From positions 1 through 64,000 of the forward strand of contig JAFUTY010000023.1 of NCBI GenBank assembly GCA_017484005.1: a stretch of 64,000 nt of DNA, written 5' to 3'. The notes under the pieces were generated by a model. That model was given only the letters and a program-made list of their open reading frames with translations. It was not told where the DNA came from and did no database searches. This document shows, in pieces, positions 4,213 through 35,961 of this stretch. Source of the stretch: Selenomonadaceae bacterium (GTDB lineage: Bacteria; Bacillota; Negativicutes; Selenomonadales; Selenomonadaceae). The translations under genes were made by a program, and so were the position numbers. Positions within the stretch are counted from its first letter, which is position 1. Each line of letters begins with the position of its first letter.

Positions 4213-6717
4213 TTGGGCAAAGATAAGAATGAAATTGAATCGCTGAACGGAACAATCAAATGGAACATTCGTGAAATATCAAAGTATGATCAATCGCGAG
4301 ATGCTGATGCGGAAATATCGGAAGTGCTTAAACTTTCAATCGATGAAAAACGAGATCTTTTAATTAAACTTCGACAGGAATTATCGGATCTCAGAAATCA
4401 ACAACTCGTTTTAATCGGCGGAAACACTTTCATGACTCTCGAAGAATTGCGCGAAAAAGTTAAATGGAATATTCGCGAAGTCGGTAAAATTGATTCCGAT
4501 TTTTCCGTCGATAAAGAGATGAAAGCGATATCCAAAATGACTCCACCTCAATTGGCAAAACGATTGATTGAACTTCGTCAAATCCGCGATCCTAAATCGA
4601 CTATTCCAATTTCAGAGCAACCAAAACCTGATAAGGAATTGGATAAGTCACTTCCGTATTTCATGCGTGGAATGACTTCGAGACTCTCTGCAGATGAGCT
4701 ATTCAAAATTTTATCGCAATATGACGTGATTTCATTCGATATTTTCGACACAGTGTTACTTCGAAAAGTTGAATTTCCAGATGATGTATTTCAAATAATG
4801 TCTGTCGAAATGGGACACAATGATTTTAAAAGTGTAAGAAAATCGGCGGAAAATGATGCTCGCGATGCTAAGGAAAAATCGGAAGGAACGCGCGAAGTCA
4901 ACATCGATGAAATTTATGAAATCCTCGAAAAGAATTTTGGAATCGATCCGAAATGGAAAGATCGCGAGATCGAATTGGAATTGTCACTGTGCGAAGCGAA
5001 TCCAGTGATTCTTGACGTCTATAATCGACTCAAAAACATGGGCAAAACTCTAGTCTTCATGTCTGATATGTATTTGAAACGTGAGACTCTCGATGCGATG
5101 CTCAAAAAGATCGGTTATTCAGGCTATGAAAAGATCTTTTTGTCAAATGAATATGGAACGCGGAAGGGCGAAGGAACTCTTCAGCCGGAATTGGTGAATG
5201 CATATCCGGATAAATTCATCGTTCATGTTGGAGATAATTGGAGTGCCGACGTTGTCAAAACTGCAGAATGTGGAATTTCGACGTTATATTGGGCAGCACC
5301 ACGTCTAGCATTTCGCGAAAATAATTTGGAATCGATCGCTGGAAATTTCTATCGCGGCTTGATGAATAATCGATTGGCTAGCGGGAATTTTGTCGATGAA
5401 AACATATATTTCACGCATGGCTGGCGAGTCGGTGGAATATTGACAGCAGGATTTTGTCAATTCGTCGATCAACTTGCTAAGTCTCAAAACGCTGAAAAGA
5501 TTCTATTTTGCGCTCGAGATTGCGATGTCATTTTCAAAGCATATCGACAATTTTGGAATGATATTCCGAGTGAGTATATCCAGATTTCGAGATATGCAAT
5601 ATTCGAGGCGACTTCCGATCGATATCTTTACGATTTTCTGAATCGAACGGTATTGCGAGCAATGGATGAATATCGAAACACAAAACCATTGCGTGAAATT
5701 TTGCAGGATACTGGATTTGGATATCTAGTTGATGATTTGGAATCGTTCGATTTGGAGCAATTTGCATTTCCACAAGCAGTTTTCGATTGCAAAAAGAGAT
5801 TGCGTGAATTTTTGTTTGCAAATGCAGACAAGATTCGCGAGCATTGTCAATCGCGAGTCGATGCAGCGCGGAAATATTTCATCGATAAAATTGGTGACGC
5901 GCGAAATATTCTTGTTGTCGATATCGGTTGGAGCGGAACATGTATCACGGCACTGAAATATTTCCTCGAGACGCAATTTCCAAATGAGGATTTTCAAGTC
6001 AGAGGAGCACTTTTGGCGACAAGTCGAAATCGTCCGCTAATCAATAGTTTGGAGGATGAAACTCTCAAATCGTATGTCTATTCTCCATTTCACGATCTGG
6101 ATATCGGGCGATTCATTGTTCCAGCAGGAAAAACGACAATCAAGGATTTGGATATTCTGCATATGCCGCTCGAATATTTATTCACATCGTCAGAGGCGTC
6201 ACTGTTGTCGTATGAGTTGGATAAAAATGGTGAAATTCAATTCATTCGAACTCCACGATCGCCGAAAAATGTTGATCAAATTGAATCGATGCAGGATGGA
6301 ATTCTAAAATTTTTGGAGGAGTTCTGCGAAAATCTGAAATGTGCAGATCTGAATTTGCAAGAGATCACAATATCTCCATATCTAGCATTTCATCCGCTGA
6401 TGGAAACGATCAAGCACAAGGAGTATATCAAATCGATCTATAAAGATTTTCCGTATGACAATTTTACTTCCGCTTTCGAGAGTCAAACACAGAGATTTGG
6501 CGCGATTCTCGGGGGGGGGGGGATTTGGATTCAGATCAAGAGATCGATCCCTCAAAAAGAATCCTCTTTGTATCGCCGGAACTCATCTACGTTGGAGCTC
6601 CGCGATCTCTACTCCGTATCTGCAAAGTCGCACGCGATCTTGGTTATTATCCATATGTCTGGAGTGCAAAACCGGGCGCATTTCAACAGGAATTCGAGAT
6701 CGAAAATATTCCTGTAG
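4213..6717 (+). CDS. HAD-like protein of a glycan locus, frame broken at a G12 tract
   Basis: I place the start at TTG 4213 because AAAGGAG lies at the right distance, while GTG 4204 sits on top of it. Two helical repeats at the N-terminus share the core KWNIRE (near residues 15 and 85). A HAD phosphatase-like domain follows, with FDIFDT near 175-182, MSDMYL and VGDNWSAD. A second conserved region begins near residue 429 (ILFCARDCDVIF). The natural frame runs 766 codons to the G12 tract. Then about 64 residues follow that look like out-of-frame translation of the next gene, up to a stop at 6717. One more G, or two fewer, would fuse it to the downstream glycosyltransferase as a protein of about 1,398 residues. 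The substrate is unknown. Confidence 0.7.
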   Translation: MGKDKNEIESLNGTIKWNIREISKYDQSRDADAEISEVLKLSIDEKRDLLIKLRQELSDLRNQQLVLIGGNTFMTLEELREKVKWNIREVGKIDSDFSVDKEMKAISKMTPPQLAKRLIELRQIRDPKSTIPISEQPKPDKELDKSLPYFMRGMTSRLSADELFKILSQYDVISFDIFDTVLLRKVEFPDDVFQIMSVEMGHNDFKSVRKSAENDARDAKEKSEGTREVNIDEIYEILEKNFGIDPKWKDREIELELSLCEANPVILDVYNRLKNMGKTLVFMSDMYLKRETLDAMLKKIGYSGYEKIFLSNEYGTRKGEGTLQPELVNAYPDKFIVHVGDNWSADVVKTAECGISTLYWAAPRLAFRENNLESIAGNFYRGLMNNRLASGNFVDENIYFTHGWRVGGILTAGFCQFVDQLAKSQNAEKILFCARDCDVIFKAYRQFWNDIPSEYIQISRYAIFEATSDRYLYDFLNRTVLRAMDEYRNTKPLREILQDTGFGYLVDDLESFDLEQFAFPQAVFDCKKRLREFLFANADKIREHCQSRVDAARKYFIDKIGDARNILVVDIGWSGTCITALKYFLETQFPNEDFQVRGALLATSRNRPLINSLEDETLKSYVYSPFHDLDIGRFIVPAGKTTIKDLDILHMPLEYLFTSSEASLLSYELDKNGEIQFIRTPRSPKNVDQIESMQDGILKFLEEFCENLKCADLNLQEITISPYLAFHPLMETIKHKEYIKSIYKDFPYDNFTSAFESQTQRFGAILGGGGIWIQIKRSIPQKESSLYRRNSSTLELRDLYSVSAKSHAILVIIHMSGVQNRAHFNRNSRSKIFL
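6511..6522 (+). repeat. G12 homopolymer, probable phase-variation tract
   Basis: Twelve consecutive G residues lie within coding sequence. Upstream the frame is open for 766 codons, and downstream the conserved frame of the glycosyltransferase is offset. Thirteen or ten G residues would read through as GGGG or GGG then DLDSDQEIDP. Long poly-G tracts are a classical substrate for slipped-strand mispairing. Confidence 0.9.
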
Positions 6718-28552: not shown

Positions 28553-30130
28553 CTATCTCAAAACGTCAGATTCAAACATTCGATGCCATGGAAAGACAAC
28601 TCGAACATCTCCAAAATCAAACGGCGGCAGGTTGTCTTCGATGAATCGATTTAAAAGTTTCGTCGATCGAGCTTCGATTTGAGTTTCAATGTCAGTTATC
28701 GACGCCTTGGGATATCGAAAACCGTTCATCTGATTCAACACGATTCGACGAACGTTCGATTGATATGCCCAATCGTCGAGATATCGCGTTATCAAAAGAT
28801 CGTCAACATCCCAATAATTCATTCGAGTTGCAAGCATTGCAGTTCCAAGAACGAATCCCGTCGAATTTGTCGGAGTGTTCCATCCTCCATATGCTCGAAT
28901 TTTGAATAACAGTGCGCGATCCCGCAATTGATTCATCAATGCATTGTCAGATCCATTTGCGAAAGCTATATCTGCAATGGCGACAGGATATCCCTTGCCG
29001 ACATTTTCTGAAACCATGTCTGCAAATTCAATCGTTCCGGGGCGAATCTGTCCATAATTTCCAGGTACAGCGTTCAGCGATTCATACGTCGCGCCATCGA
29101 TATTCGTGTTGACTAATAGCACAACATTAGCATTGTCGGGCTTTGGAACTGGATAACCTCCCGTCGAAATTATAGCTTCTTGAATCGACTGCTCGATTGT
29201 TTCATCGCTATAAGCAGGGATCGTCTTTTCACCTGTTCCAATATTGTATTGCGTGTAGACAAATGGAACGTCGCCAGTGATTGTATTAACTGCGCGAGTC
29301 AACATCAATAAAGCCAATTCATCAATTCCCGCTACAGTCTGCATTCGAGTTTTGCCGAGATCCTTGGCATATTCCTTCAAATGTCTGCCTTCCATATGAG
29401 TTTGAGAATATGGAGCATTGTCATCTCGTCCCAATAAAAAGTATCCAAAAACATCTTTCCGCGTGAGATCGACCAATTTTTTATTGGCGTTGAAATTTTT
29501 CGATCGGCGTTTCATCCAATCCTCGAGAGCTTCTTTCGGAATTGAATTTTCGAGATTTTTCAGCGATTTTTTCTCCTGCTTCGTCAATTTTTCAGTTTCC
29601 TTTTTATCGAGGAGCGAAGTGTATTGAAAAATCGACGCGCCATATTGCTTGTAATAATCAGTTTCTTCCGAGCCGACACCCTCGCCAGTTCGTGGAGTTC
29701 TCATAATCGATGCGAATGTAAACATCTTTAAATATGGAAATTTTTCATGGATTTTCTCGAAATTTTCGATTCGATTTGCGATTGTCTTTTCATCGATCGA
29801 ATGCTTTCGCGATGCAACTAGACTTCCATATAACATTGCATCGGAAGAAATGACTGCTGTCACTGCACCATCTGCATTTTGCTCGAGCCATTTCCAAAGT
29901 TTATCCGGCTCGCCAAAATTTTTTTCATTGCCAAGCAATTCAATCGGCGGAGTTACAACTTCATAACCAAGTTTTTGAACGACTTCCGCGGATTGTTTAT
30001 TGGAAATCGGTCTTGAATCGTGAGGGATGAATATGATTTTTTCACCGCTGGCTTCAACGCTCGAAAAAATTGTGAGAGTTGAAATTCCAGCGACAAGAAT
30101 CGATTTCAAAAATTTTTTGATTGAGATCAC
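28553..30130 (-). CDS. DUF4127 family exported protein
   Basis: This protein of up to 525 residues matches DUF4127: FIPHDSRPISNKQS near the mature N-terminus, SSDAMLYGSLVASRKH, ASIMRTPRTGEG, GRDDNAPYSQT, and ADIAFANGSDN. A signal peptide is present. The function of the family is not known to me. GTG 30130 lies inside an extended Shine-Dalgarno-like AAGGACGTGATC. A start at ATC 30121 would give MKKFLKSIL at normal spacing. It is the third gene after the GH13-GH77 fusion and the FkbM methyltransferase. Confidence 0.85.
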   Translation of the reverse strand: MISIKKFLKSILVAGISTLTIFSSVEASGEKIIFIPHDSRPISNKQSAEVVQKLGYEVVTPPIELLGNEKNFGEPDKLWKWLEQNADGAVTAVISSDAMLYGSLVASRKHSIDEKTIANRIENFEKIHEKFPYLKMFTFASIMRTPRTGEGVGSEETDYYKQYGASIFQYTSLLDKKETEKLTKQEKKSLKNLENSIPKEALEDWMKRRSKNFNANKKLVDLTRKDVFGYFLLGRDDNAPYSQTHMEGRHLKEYAKDLGKTRMQTVAGIDELALLMLTRAVNTITGDVPFVYTQYNIGTGEKTIPAYSDETIEQSIQEAIISTGGYPVPKPDNANVVLLVNTNIDGATYESLNAVPGNYGQIRPGTIEFADMVSENVGKGYPVAIADIAFANGSDNALMNQLRDRALLFKIRAYGGWNTPTNSTGFVLGTAMLATRMNYWDVDDLLITRYLDDWAYQSNVRRIVLNQMNGFRYPKASITDIETQIEARSTKLLNRFIEDNLPPFDFGDVRVVFPWHRMFESDVLR

Positions 30131-30143
30131 GTCCTTTTAAAAA

Positions 30144-31309
30144 TCAACGCGCGAAAAGTACCAATTCATAGCCCGCTGAATATCGCATCGGCAAATCGAA
30201 TTTTTTGCAGAAATCTACGATATGTGGATTTGCCAAAAACAAAAATGGCTCATTATCTGAACTTGCTTCGAAGTGACGAAAAGCAAATTCATAATCTGGA
30301 CGAATCGATCTCACAAAATCGATAAGTGTCCAAAGATCTTCCGGTTTATGATATGCAGACAGAGCTAATTTTGGTTTAAATCGAGTGATAGTGTCTACCG
30401 ATCCTTTGAGCATTGCGAGCTCAGCACCTTCGATATCGAGCTTGATAAAGTCAACGCTTGGAAGATTTTTCTCGCGAACGTATGCATCAAGAGTTGTGAG
30501 TTGAGTTTTTGGAGATCCATCCGGCGCAAGTTGATTAAAATAAATTCTACTCGCGCCGCCACCTTGTTTATATTCAATTTCGCGTGGAAAATCTGCAAGT
30601 CCAAGATTTTCGAGGATGAATCCCTTTTCGTCAGCAAGTTTTTTAGCGTCTGCAAAATTTTTCTTAGACATTTCGAAGGAATAGACTTTGCAACCGAGAT
30701 CAGTAAAAAACGCGGCAGTTGCTCCATCACACGCGCCACCGTCAATCATTATATCCCCAGCTTGCGGCAAAAATCCGTTCAATAAGTATTGCGATTGAGG
30801 AGCGAATTTGCAGAATGAAACTCGTCGCGACACCCATTGCAATATGAATCCTAGGAGTGTTTCGCGCGATTCATCATCGATTAAATCTTTGTAAATTCGA
30901 AAAATATCCTCTAAATGCGCAAGATAGAAATTGAATCGCTCGCGTAAACCTCTAGCATTGTCATTGATAATCGGTTCAATTCCCCATTCGATAAATTTCT
31001 GTGCCGCAATCATCGAAACGTGTTCTCTAACTAGAAACACAAATTCGATCTTATTGTTCGGGGGGGGGGGGCGAACTTGACAGATTGAATTCCATCGAAA
31101 GGTTTTTCAAATTCTTCCGGCTCAACGGCAAAAAGATATTTGAATTGAATTCCGGAACGCTGAAATTGCGCAATCAATTCAGCTTTTTGCTCTCGTGACC
31201 ATCTCGGTGCGAATAAAGCGACAGGAGTATTGTTTTTCGCGATTCGTTGATTTGTATATTCGTAACGAATTTCGCTCATTTGGCTGACGAAATTCAGAAA
31301 ACGATTCAT
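30144..31309 (-). CDS. FkbM family methyltransferase, frame interrupted by a C12 tract (OFF state)
   Basis: From ATG 31309 (behind AGAGGTGA) the frame gives about 79 residues ending VKFA, then meets 12 C on the coding strand and stops at 31031. The conserved part continues in another frame from 31040: GDIMIDGGACDGATAAFF, VYSFEMSKKNF and VDFIKLDIEGAELAMLKG, the FkbM SAM-binding and catalytic segments. One extra C, or two fewer, restores one protein of about 388 residues (VKFA, prolines, NNKIEFVFLVREH). The family O-methylates sugars and other metabolites. In the state read here it should not be made in full length. Confidence 0.85.
31060..31071 (-). repeat. G12 homopolymer (C12 in coding sense), probable phase-variation tract
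   Basis: Twelve G on the plus strand interrupt the FkbM gene. The flanks GTTCG and CGAAC form a small inverted repeat around it. As at 6511, lengths 13 or 10 are in frame and 12 is out of frame. Confidence 0.9.
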
Positions 31310-31314
31310 ATTTG

Positions 31315-34300
31315 TCACCTCTTGTATTTTTGACAGAGCGAGCGAAGTCTTGCAGCGTCTGCATTCTCTTTGTAATCTGAACTCATTGACCAGCGCCAAT
31401 TGATTCCGACAGTTCCAGGAGTATTCATTCGCGACTTCGAATCGAGTTTCAAAACGTCTTGCATCGGAACAATTGTCATTCGAGCGTTAGATGCATATCC
31501 AAACTCGATCAACTTCGAGCAAACATCATCCGGACGTCTCCAATCTGCACCGAGCAATGCAGCGATTGCAACTTGAGTCGGCTCGTCGAGATCTTCGAGA
31601 TACCAGCCGACCGTAGTATTGTTATCGTGAGTTCCAGTGTAAACGATCGAATTTTCCGGTGCGACAAATCCCATGCGACCTTCTTCGTTGAAATGCAATG
31701 TGAAATGTAGAACTTTCATGCCGGGGAATCCACAATCAGCGCGGAGTTTCTCGACTTCGTCAGTGATAATTCCAAGATCTTCCGCGACGATCGACAATTT
31801 TCCGAACGCCTGTTCGATTGCATAGAAAAAGTTTTTGCCAGGACCAGGTTTCCATTTTCCATCGATCGCAGTTTCAGCCTCGCCATCGATTTCCCAATAC
31901 GATTCAAAACCGCGGAAATGATCGATTCGAACGATATCAACCAATTCCGAGAGCCGCTTGAATCTCAATTTCCACCAGCCATAATGATCTTTCTGCATTG
32001 CCTTCCAGTCATAGAGTGGATTTCCCCAGAGCTGTCCAGTCGCAGAGAAATAATCTGGCGGAACTCCAGCGACAGTCTTCGGCGTGCCATCTTTGTTGAG
32101 ATCAAACATTTTCTGATTTGCCCAAACATCGGCGGAATCTGCGGAAACAAAAATCGGCATGTCGCCCATGATTTCGATTTTCTTTTCGCGAGCATAACTA
32201 TGCAATTTTTCCCATTGACGGTGGAAGATGTACTGCTTGAATTTCTCGAGGAACACTCCATCTTTGAGCTTGTCACGAAGTTCCTTGAGAGTCGATTCAT
32301 CGCGCGTCCGAATCTTTTCATCCCATTCAGTCCACGCACGAAGTTTATTTTTATCTTTGATCGCAATGAATAAAGCATAATCCTCGAGCCAATATGCTTC
32401 GCTCGTGCAGAAATCATCGAAATCTTTCCGGAGCTCTTCATTTCCACTGATCATTTCTTTGAATTTCGCGGCAGCTTTTTTCAGACATTTATTTTTGAAA
32501 ATCTCAGCCTTGGCAAAATCGACGAATTGCGATTTGACTTGACGATCGACTTTCACATCGCCCTCGTTGAGAAGTCCACGAGATACTAGATCATCGACAG
32601 AGATCAACATTGGATTTCCGGCGAATGCTGAGGGAGATTGATACGGTGAATATCCATAACCGACAGGATTCAGTGGGAGCATTTGCCAAACTGTCTGTCC
32701 TGCAGATTCGAGATAATCGACAAAATCGAAAGCCGCCTGCCCAAAATCACCGATTCCATATTTCGTCGGGAGAGATGTTGGATGCAGCAAAATTCCAGCC
32801 TTGCGATCGTGATGCTGTTGATCCGCTACATTTTTCAACAGAATTCCAGTGAATGGTTTGAGATTCAGATAAACTCTTCCGCGCATAACTGGAATCGATT
32901 CCGAAGGTTTCAAGACATCGATGAATTTTCCATCTGCAAAATCACTGACATCGAAGGAAATCTGTCGATCCTCTCCCGCGCGATTGAATGCAATGACAAA
33001 TGTTTCATTCTCCGCTTCAACTCCAAAGACATCGTGACCGGTGCGAATCGTTCGAGCATATGCAACAATATCTCCGCCTGCATGCAATGGTAGCAATTCG
33101 CCAGTTCGAAGAGCTGTATGATCATTGCGAATTCCAATCAACGTCTTGAAGAATCCACGAAGCTCTTCATCCGCGCGATCCCATTCATACGCACCGCGGC
33201 AATATGGATCTTTGAATCCCTGCATTCCGATTTCATCTCCGTAATAAATGCTCGGAACACCTGGATAGGTCATTTGCCACATCGCTGCCATTTTCAGCCG
33301 CGCGATTCCGAGTTTCAACTTCGATTCATCGAGCCGATATTTTGCCTGATCCATATCTGGCATTTCGTCATAATATGGAGCTTCGCCGAAAATCGTCAAA
33401 ATTCTCATGCGATCGTGAGAGCCGATTAAATTCATCATTGCATAGAAATTCTCTTTTGGATAATTCTCACGCAACGACTCGAGCCGGCGCATTGCTAGAT
33501 TTCCATCGATGTGCCCGAGCAAAAATTCGATAACCTGCTCGCGGAATGGATAATTCATCGCGGAATCGAGCTCACGTCCGCATAAATATTCACGCTGAAC
33601 TCCATATGAAACTTTGTTCGATGCATCTTCCCAAACTTCACCGATTAACACCGCTTCAGGATTCAACTTTTTCAATTCTGAATAGAAAGCTTGTGAGAAT
33701 TCTGGCGGAAGTTCATCGACAACATCGAGACGCCAGCCGCTGATTCCCTCGCCAATCCAATGATGCAAAACTGAATCATCGCTGCGAATTATGAAATCCA
33801 TGTATGACGGAGTTATCTCACGAATGTTCGGAAGAGTGTTATGTCCCCACCAAGCCTCATATTCCGTCGGCCATTTATGGAATGTATACCAATCAAAATA
33901 TGGCGAATCTTTCGATTGACACGCACCGACTGAATTATATTCGCCGAGGACGTTGAAATAGATCGAATTTGCGCCGCTGTGAGAAAAAACTCCATCGAGG
34001 ATTATATGAATTCCCATCTCGCGAGCCTTGTCAACCAATTCGCGAAAATCCTGATTCGTTCCGAGCATTGGATCGACTTTGTGATAATCGCCGGTGTCAT
34101 AATGATGATTCGATTCTGATTCGAAAATCGGATTAAAATAGATCGTATTGATTCCGAGATCCTTCAAATAATCGAGTTTTTCCTCGACGCCTTTCAAATT
34201 TCCGCCGAAGAAATCGTAAGCAATGATCGCCTTCGTCGTTGGATCTTTGTAATAGTTTGGCGAATCATTCCAATCTGCATGGATAACTGCACGCTTTTTC

Positions 34301-34770
34301 GGAATGATTCGATCGCCGGAACGATAAAATCTGTCGGGGAAAATCTGATAAATCACTGAATGTTTGAACCAATCGGGAGTCTTTGCGCCTTTGAGATAAA
34401 CTGTGATTTGATATGAGGGCGGGACATGATCGTAGATTTCACCGAGCCCGCCGAGTTGATCTTCTTTGTTGCCATAGAAACTTGTGCCGCTCGAATGTGC
34501 AATGATAAAATAATACCAGAGCAGACATCCTTTGCTCGGCATCGTGACTGCGACGCTGTAAAATTTATCGTTGCCAGTGTCGCGAGTTGTCAATGGAATC
34601 AATTTCTCGCCAGAGCCGTCTTGCCATGTGCGGAGGAGAACTTGTTTGATCTCCTCGTCAGTGCGAATTCGAATTCCGAGCACGACTTCAGATTCAGTTT
34701 CAGCCGCACCGACAGTCGAGCGATAGTAGATGTTTTGCGAATTATGTTCGACGCTTCCTCGTTCGAGCAT
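31315..34770 (-). CDS. Fused GH13 amylase/debranching enzyme and GH77 4-alpha-glucanotransferase
   Basis: This 1,151-residue protein joins two glycan enzymes. Residues 1 to about 630 are a GH13 enzyme with a beta-rich N-terminal domain: YQIFPDRF, GWRLDVVDE (nucleophile), LIGEVWED (acid) and LIGSHDRMR. From about 635 it is a MalQ-type GH77 enzyme: RKAGILLHPTSLPTKYGIGD, VRIDHFRGFESYW (nucleophile), VAEDLGII (acid) and TGTHDNNT. No signal peptide is visible, so it should process glycogen or imported maltodextrin in the cytoplasm. Start ATG follows AAAGGAG. The FkbM gene begins five bases after its stop, whose TGA lies in that gene's ribosome site. Confidence 0.92.
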   Translation of the reverse strand: MLERGSVEHNSQNIYYRSTVGAAETESEVVLGIRIRTDEEIKQVLLRTWQDGSGEKLIPLTTRDTGNDKFYSVAVTMPSKGCLLWYYFIIAHSSGTSFYGNKEDQLGGLGEIYDHVPPSYQITVYLKGAKTPDWFKHSVIYQIFPDRFYRSGDRIIPKKRAVIHADWNDSPNYYKDPTTKAIIAYDFFGGNLKGVEEKLDYLKDLGINTIYFNPIFESESNHHYDTGDYHKVDPMLGTNQDFRELVDKAREMGIHIILDGVFSHSGANSIYFNVLGEYNSVGACQSKDSPYFDWYTFHKWPTEYEAWWGHNTLPNIREITPSYMDFIIRSDDSVLHHWIGEGISGWRLDVVDELPPEFSQAFYSELKKLNPEAVLIGEVWEDASNKVSYGVQREYLCGRELDSAMNYPFREQVIEFLLGHIDGNLAMRRLESLRENYPKENFYAMMNLIGSHDRMRILTIFGEAPYYDEMPDMDQAKYRLDESKLKLGIARLKMAAMWQMTYPGVPSIYYGDEIGMQGFKDPYCRGAYEWDRADEELRGFFKTLIGIRNDHTALRTGELLPLHAGGDIVAYARTIRTGHDVFGVEAENETFVIAFNRAGEDRQISFDVSDFADGKFIDVLKPSESIPVMRGRVYLNLKPFTGILLKNVADQQHHDRKAGILLHPTSLPTKYGIGDFGQAAFDFVDYLESAGQTVWQMLPLNPVGYGYSPYQSPSAFAGNPMLISVDDLVSRGLLNEGDVKVDRQVKSQFVDFAKAEIFKNKCLKKAAAKFKEMISGNEELRKDFDDFCTSEAYWLEDYALFIAIKDKNKLRAWTEWDEKIRTRDESTLKELRDKLKDGVFLEKFKQYIFHRQWEKLHSYAREKKIEIMGDMPIFVSADSADVWANQKMFDLNKDGTPKTVAGVPPDYFSATGQLWGNPLYDWKAMQKDHYGWWKLRFKRLSELVDIVRIDHFRGFESYWEIDGEAETAIDGKWKPGPGKNFFYAIEQAFGKLSIVAEDLGIITDEVEKLRADCGFPGMKVLHFTLHFNEEGRMGFVAPENSIVYTGTHDNNTTVGWYLEDLDEPTQVAIAALLGADWRRPDDVCSKLIEFGYASNARMTIVPMQDVLKLDSKSRMNTPGTVGINWRWSMSSDYKENADAARLRSLCQKYKR

Positions 34771-34941: not shown

Positions 34942-35161
34942 TTATAAGGGCAATTCAGTTTCATAAATCTGCAGCAAAAGTCCAGCTTCAGATGAAAAGA
35001 CTTCCGCAGCATTTTTTAAACCTGCATCGAGATAATCGATTGGACAAGTCGGATCATATCCAAATTGTCCGAGTTCCATTTCAACTTCCGCCTCGCGATC
35101 TCGAATTTCCCATTTGAAATCATAATCGCTTGTCAATGCTTGATGCTCGCCTTTGAATTCA
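34942..35161 (-). pseudogene. Partial copy of the mutarotase-like gene
   Basis: Positions 35001-35161 match 35379-35539 inside the neighbouring gene with a single mismatch. The next 60 bases match less well, but the encoded residues stay similar (SSEAGLLLQIYETELPL, then stop). The N-terminal 60% of the gene is missing, and the open frame begins inside a terminator. I read it as a remnant of a duplicate, not a working gene. Confidence 0.75.
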
Positions 35162-35170
35162 AATAAAAAA

Positions 35171-35209
35171 AAAGATCCACCGATCAACTTCGATCGATGG
35201 ATCTTTTTA
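35171..35209. terminator. Bidirectional hairpin terminator
   Basis: GATCCACCGATC pairs with GATCGATGGATC around AACTTC, with a nine-A run before and a five-T run after. It lies downstream of the mutarotase-like gene on the minus strand. Confidence 0.75.
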
Positions 35210-35237
35210 AATTGGGTCAAGCGTCACGCTTGTTTTT
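35207..35237 (+). repeat. Terminator-like element shared with the hypF 3' end, copy 1
   Basis: AAATTGGGTCAAGC, then GTCACGCTTGTTTTT, forms a plus-strand hairpin (CAAGCG with CGCTTG) with a T-run. The same 14-base lead sequence and hairpin occur after hypF at 44529. No plus-strand gene precedes this copy. Confidence 0.7.
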
Positions 35238-35961
35238 ATCGCGATTTCAAAACATAGACAACCTGTCCTTGAGTCATTCCGCCTGTCTCGATCAACAATC
35301 CACTTTTGACTGCGGAAAAATGCAATGGCAATTCAGTTTCATAAAGTTGCAACAGAATTCCAGATTCCGAAGAAAAAACTTCCGCAGCATTTTTTAAACC
35401 TGCATCGAGATAATCGATTGGACAAGTCGGATCATATCCAAATTGTCCGATTTCCATTTCAACTTCCGCCTCGCGATCTCGAATTTCCCATTTGAAATCA
35501 TAATCGCTTGTCAATGCTTGATGCTCGCCTTTGAATTCATCTGAAAACACTTTGATCTTAGGATCTTTCAAAATCTCGGTATTGAAAACGAGCCGATTAT
35601 GAAGTGCAGCGGTGTGAGATTCATATTTGATACTCAATTCGTTATCATTCGACAGAGAATAGATAACAGTCGAGCCGAGTTGAACGAGTTTCAATCCCTC
35701 GTAAGTCTCCTCAGCCTCCCAAATTTCCTTCGTGAGATCTTTTTCGCTGTTGATAACTGCACCGCGAGATTGATCGGAAACGTCAGAATTTGCGAGAACA
35801 TCGACGAATTTATAACCTTTGCCGAGAAATCTCCATGAAATCAGCCGCGCACCGTAGGTCAGAACTTTAATCGCCGTGCCTTTATTGTTTCTGAGAGTAT
35901 AGACATCGGCAGAAATTCCCTCGGAAATTGTGATTGGATCTTCCTTTTTGATATGCGCCAT
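35236..35961 (-). CDS. Short aldose 1-epimerase-like protein
   Basis: This 241-residue protein resembles galactose mutarotases at its ends: an N-terminal VLTYGARLISWRF, and a C-terminal YETELPLHFSA and GLLIETGGMTQGQ. It is about 100 residues shorter than GalM and lacks the usual central histidine motifs. It may be a non-catalytic carbohydrate-binding relative. It starts 24 bases after the REC-GGDEF-EAL gene on the minus strand. A partial copy lies downstream. Confidence 0.6.
   Translation of the reverse strand: MAHIKKEDPITISEGISADVYTLRNNKGTAIKVLTYGARLISWRFLGKGYKFVDVLANSDVSDQSRGAVINSEKDLTKEIWEAEETYEGLKLVQLGSTVIYSLSNDNELSIKYESHTAALHNRLVFNTEILKDPKIKVFSDEFKGEHQALTSDYDFKWEIRDREAEVEMEIGQFGYDPTCPIDYLDAGLKNAAEVFSSESGILLQLYETELPLHFSAVKSGLLIETGGMTQGQVVYVLKSR

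Follow-up and report, generated by a model that had tools for sequence, protein, structure and literature searches.

A conserved poly-C tract as a putative phase-variation switch in an FkbM-family methyltransferase gene of an uncultured, Quinella-related Selenomonadaceae bacterium

The DNA considered here, referred to as the window, is the whole 64,000-nucleotide stretch at positions 1 to 64,000 of contig JAFUTY010000023.1, from the assembly GCA_017484005.1 of a Selenomonadaceae bacterium (Bacillota; Negativicutes). An operon on its minus strand carries, in order, a malQ-like gene (31315..34770) for a fused amylase-like/4-alpha-glucanotransferase of 1151 amino acids, an FkbM-family methyltransferase gene (30144..31309, from ATG 31309 to a stop codon at 30144-30146) that is proposed here to be phase variable, and a gene for a DUF4127 protein (28553..30130). 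A Shine–Dalgarno-like AGAGGTG (31314..31325, minus strand) lies a few bases 5′ of ATG 31309 and overlaps the 3′ end of the malQ-like gene, to which the FkbM gene is probably translationally coupled. Between the malQ-like and DUF4127 genes of at least ten other species (compare 30131-31314 of the window) there is instead an ORF of approximately 230 amino acids with a zinc ribbon, presumably DUF2225-like, so that the FkbM gene represents an insertion into, or a replacement within, a conserved operon and is specific to this lineage. The C-terminal part of a neighbouring gene is partially duplicated in tandem at positions 34942-35220 and 35236-35961 of the window, with approximately 60–70 near-identical amino acids.

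The proposed slippage switch is a homopolymer at 31060..31071 on the minus strand, C12 in the coding sense of the FkbM gene. The first-pass annotation of this DNA had described it as the second G12 tract of the window, and so it proved: the run is exactly 12 G on the plus strand and there are two such tracts. The other (6511..6522, plus strand) is inside a large gene that is out of frame as assembled, with 658 codons before the tract and 627 after it and GT4/GT2 domains in the latter part; this gene has a paralogue of 75% identity on contig C50, likewise with a G12 at that place. Besides these two tracts, the G/C runs of at least 5 in the window comprise five of length 5 and none of 6–11. A first-order model predicts 2.4e-5 runs of at least 12 G per window, and none of 100 dinucleotide shuffles of the window attained the observed count of 9-G matches; the length of the tract is beyond chance. 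The flanking sequences GTTCG and CGAAC are present as had been described, but they are incidental, and a flanking inverted repeat was rejected as a functional element, the mean arm being 2.0 over 86 tracts versus 2.07 in shuffled flank pairs. The bases immediately bordering the tracts are species-specific, i.e. C[Gn]C in this genome, at coding and promoter tracts and in both orientations, and other bases in other species (compared in the genomes G023, G036 and G016).

Translation from ATG 31309 reaches the tract after 79 codons (31072..31309) and ends at a stop at 31031, giving an ORF of 92 codons, while the FkbM domain lies in a different frame that opens at GTG 31040 and runs to the stop at 30144, much as the first-pass annotation had it from the SAM motifs. 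This downstream frame (30144..31040, minus strand) encodes the remainder of the N-terminal domain and the SAM-binding FkbM domain. In a scripted series of tract lengths from 9 to 15, 10 and 13 C restore single ORFs of 387 and 388 amino acids, respectively, the same two lengths that had been named, and 9, 11, 12, 14 and 15 all lead to termination within 85–93 codons. The gene is thus out of frame at its assembled length of 12, and a change of one unit switches the reading frame and leaves the rest of the gene intact, with no further stop or frameshift and with all catalytic motifs retained.

The 79 upstream codons are part of the FkbM gene, as indicated by the good Shine–Dalgarno sequence before them, by their homology to the N-termini of relatives and by the single predicted domain that they form with the residues after the tract. 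Whether these codons are foreign to the gene in relatives had been put forward as a check on the whole idea; the N-termini of relatives are homologous, and in relatives without a tract the upstream frame is open, which disposes of that objection. Against a profile of 35 intact relatives, the 79-codon peptide scores 24.3 bits, where the best of 200 shuffles reaches 3.5, and once the protein is read through the tract it aligns with its relatives from end to end. The family assignment is supported by PF05050 (61.8 bits, cut-off 22.7) and the NCBIfam model TIGR01444 (57.1, cut-off 37.7), together with the SAM motifs. An AlphaFold2 model with a mean pLDDT of 81.9 predicts residues 1–115 to be a single alpha/beta domain, with pLDDT of about 84–91 on both sides of the tract, and places the tract-coded prolines in a loop joining the strands 75–78 and 89–93. 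The nearest solved structure, top in both sequence and fold searches, is the FkbM methyltransferase 2py6, with a TM score of about 0.55 across the whole model. The protein resembles the family in its SAM-binding domain, which is above the curated cut-offs, and in its best fold, and differs from it in the tract-encoded poly-proline loop of the N-terminal domain. Phage records, searched with this gene, gave no match.

The source genome falls in the genus of Quinella sp. 1Q7, and the position of the tract was surveyed at 29 FkbM loci from 28 other genomes of this genus, drawn from one search batch and covering 104,793 bases. All 16 runs of at least seven C on the coding strand were found at the homologous place, 66–87 bases 5′ of the point that corresponds to residue 1 of the downstream frame, with none in the remainder of the 104,793 bases. 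The upstream ORFs have 61–127 codons in every case, and the 16 tracts divide evenly, eight being in frame and eight not. The genome's own paralogue, on contig C3, has a C13 at the homologous place and is also out of frame. One relative without the N-terminal tract (locus L068, 2662-3807) has an APPPP insertion within its SAM domain, which may mark a further tract site.

The tract is one of many. The genome (2.44 Mb in 72 contigs, about 58% A+T, the latter figure being that of the window) contains 88 tracts of at least nine G, versus 0.26 expected from a first-order model; the most common length is 12 (36 tracts), and 11 and 13 account for 18 tracts each. Runs of at least nine A number 84. Across the remaining 65 genomes of the genus the count of such G tracts is 2–46 per genome, and across approximately 147 genomes from other genera of the class it is 0–13. 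Among the clearly intragenic tracts 15 of 44 are in frame, the one-third share that is predicted for free-running slippage. A further group of about 15–17 tracts separates TTGACA-like (−35) from TATAAT-like (−10) boxes, where the control rate is 0.35% per site; the ten such loci listed have spacers of 14–22, and these promoter-spacer tracts are candidates for transcriptional phase variation. Paralogues differ in tract length at the same site, with 11, 12, 13 and 13 in the TonB receptors and 11, 12, 12 and 15 in the DUF4422 genes, the length comparisons throughout being drawn from paralogues and from other species with one genome per species. The contigs C36 and C55 share a common flank next to tracts of 19 and 15; they were considered as direct length variation and rejected, as they are paralogues of approximately 85% identity.

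The genes that bear or adjoin the tracts are typical targets of phasomes. They include glycosyltransferases (GT2, GT4, GT8, GT11 and GT61), WcbI, WbqC, TupA-type ATP-grasp, DUF4422, hexapeptide acyltransferases, methyltransferases, radical SAM/SPASM proteins, TonB-dependent receptors, flagellin, a type ISP restriction-modification enzyme and citrate lyase ligase. Four TonB-receptor-like paralogues, one of which was run against Pfam, have C13, C13, C12 and C11 near their 5′ ends, a G14 tract (contig C44:90282-90291) is closely upstream of a flagellin gene, and a G10 tract (contig C58:833-842) within the type ISP restriction-modification gene is in frame as assembled, such that restriction by this enzyme is possibly phase variable. 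Both mutS and mutL are intact, so that the abundance of tracts is not attributable to a loss of mismatch repair.

Considering how else the split FkbM frame could arise, an unlikely explanation is slippage by RNA polymerase, programmed or statistical, or ribosomal frameshifting on the C12, either of which would yield full-length and truncated protein in constant proportion from unchanged DNA. Transcription could slip on a homopolymer of 12 bases and the downstream frame is intact, but a constant programmed frameshift does not fit a tract whose position is conserved while its frame is mixed, half of the homologous copies being in and half out, nor a genome where one in three intragenic tracts is in frame, and frameshifting would be meaningless at the promoter-spacer tracts. 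The conserved position and mixed frames also argue against a decaying pseudogene in which the frameshift is an ordinary inactivating mutation; such decay would explain why the gene is out of frame as assembled, but with every catalytic motif retained, no second lesion, and a tract kept in relatives, half of them in frame, it is the most improbable of these explanations.

It is quite unlikely that the downstream frame alone makes up a complete gene, starting at GTG 31040 or ATG 31013, with the 79 upstream codons dispensable and the tract length nearly irrelevant. In its favour, the entire SAM domain is 3′ of the tract and ATG 31013 is preceded by a weak Shine–Dalgarno sequence (AGAGAA), so that this internal start might yield a truncated SAM-domain product when the gene is off; against it, the upstream codons have a better ribosome-binding site of their own, are homologous to intact relatives and form half of a single folded domain in the predicted structure. 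We consider it very unlikely that the true tract is stable and in frame, encoding an intact FkbM protein with a poly-proline loop, and that its length was misread in sequencing or assembly. Homopolymers of 12 are error-prone and a few contigs (C8, C36, C42 and C55) do end at tracts, but G/C tracts recur at the same gene position in independently assembled genomes, and a wrong length would create neither the tracts nor their two-state frames; long conserved homopolymers would be mutable in any case.

Slipped-strand phase variation is very probably the best explanation of the FkbM tract, and the suggestion that a single continuous FkbM gene is phase variable draws strong support from the conserved tract position with mixed frames, the upstream homology and the set of 88 tracts. 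As judged from sequence features, i.e. excess length, a frame switch and conservation with mixed frames, the tract would qualify as a simple-sequence contingency locus. DNA polymerase would slip on the 12-base homopolymer and gain or lose a base, such that cells of a population would come to differ in tract length. At lengths of 10, 13 and so forth, one frame would run through both the N-terminal part and the SAM domain and the gene would be ON; at other lengths, including the assembled 12, the protein would end after about 85–93 residues and the gene would be OFF, so that about one-third of lengths would be ON. The OFF state of the assembled gene is tentative, as homopolymer lengths in assemblies can err by one. 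One proline more or less would presumably be tolerated, as the prolines encoded by the tract are predicted to form a loop between two strands of the N-terminal domain. Loss of repair favours slippage in Campylobacter, whereas in Neisseria intact mismatch repair is no bar to phase variation; with mutS and mutL intact, slippage here would proceed without a boost from repair loss, which we count against the mechanism.

The FkbM gene may be one of approximately 60–70 tract-controlled genes, mostly for cell-surface glycans, receptors and flagella, and the likely consequence of its switching would be random variation in the methyl decoration of a surface molecule. The first-pass annotation held that FkbM enzymes methylate sugars, which is too broad, as the founding FkbM acts on a macrolide. 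Given that founding substrate and the location of the present gene in a malQ–DUF4127 operon, a glycan is a presumed substrate of this enzyme. The benefit to the bacterium could be the evasion of phages, of protozoa or of host immunity or recognition.

The closest known parallels are the poly-G/C contingency loci of Campylobacter jejuni, such as Cj1295 (PMC3068675; reviewed in PMC8355987). Both systems combine an AT-rich genome, three-frame ON/OFF switching and G/C homopolymers, some intragenic and others intergenic, that are associated with glycan, flagellar and modification genes; the present one differs in belonging to the Negativicutes within the Bacillota, in the presence of mutS and mutL and in having more tracts per genome, and its tracts were compared across species and paralogues. 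In the homopolymer-spacer promoters of Neisseria, a tract between the −35 and −10 boxes alters the spacer length, as about 15 of the other tracts may do here, whereas the FkbM tract is intragenic. SSR phase variation itself is known; the novelty lies in a phasome this large in a rumen Negativicute that is neither pathogenic nor cultured. A search of open-licence papers for SSR phase variation in Selenomonas, Negativicutes or rumen bacteria returned no prior report, which is weak evidence.

We think it likely that this uncultured, non-pathogenic member of the Negativicutes from the rumen has a poly-G phasome that ranks among the larger ones known, with approximately 88 tracts, both intragenic and in promoter spacers, that extend to TonB receptors, flagellin and a type ISP restriction enzyme; its mismatch repair is intact and the C[Gn]C flank is species-specific. 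Some low-methane sheep carry abundant Quinella, which is uncultured, in their rumen, and the Quinella genome paper describes granular and smooth cell surfaces in one sample (PMC9585023). That paper is silent on homopolymers, and uses of ‘phase’ in it refer to phase-contrast microscopy. A phasome of such size would explain the heterogeneity of granular and smooth cells in Quinella, an observation that fits phase variation without proving it, and is directly testable in existing rumen reads. According to a recent review, it is an open question whether multi-locus phase variation is restricted to pathogens (PMC11868660). If the present interpretation is true, large multi-locus phase variation would not be confined to pathogens, and this bacterium would provide a commensal counter-example.
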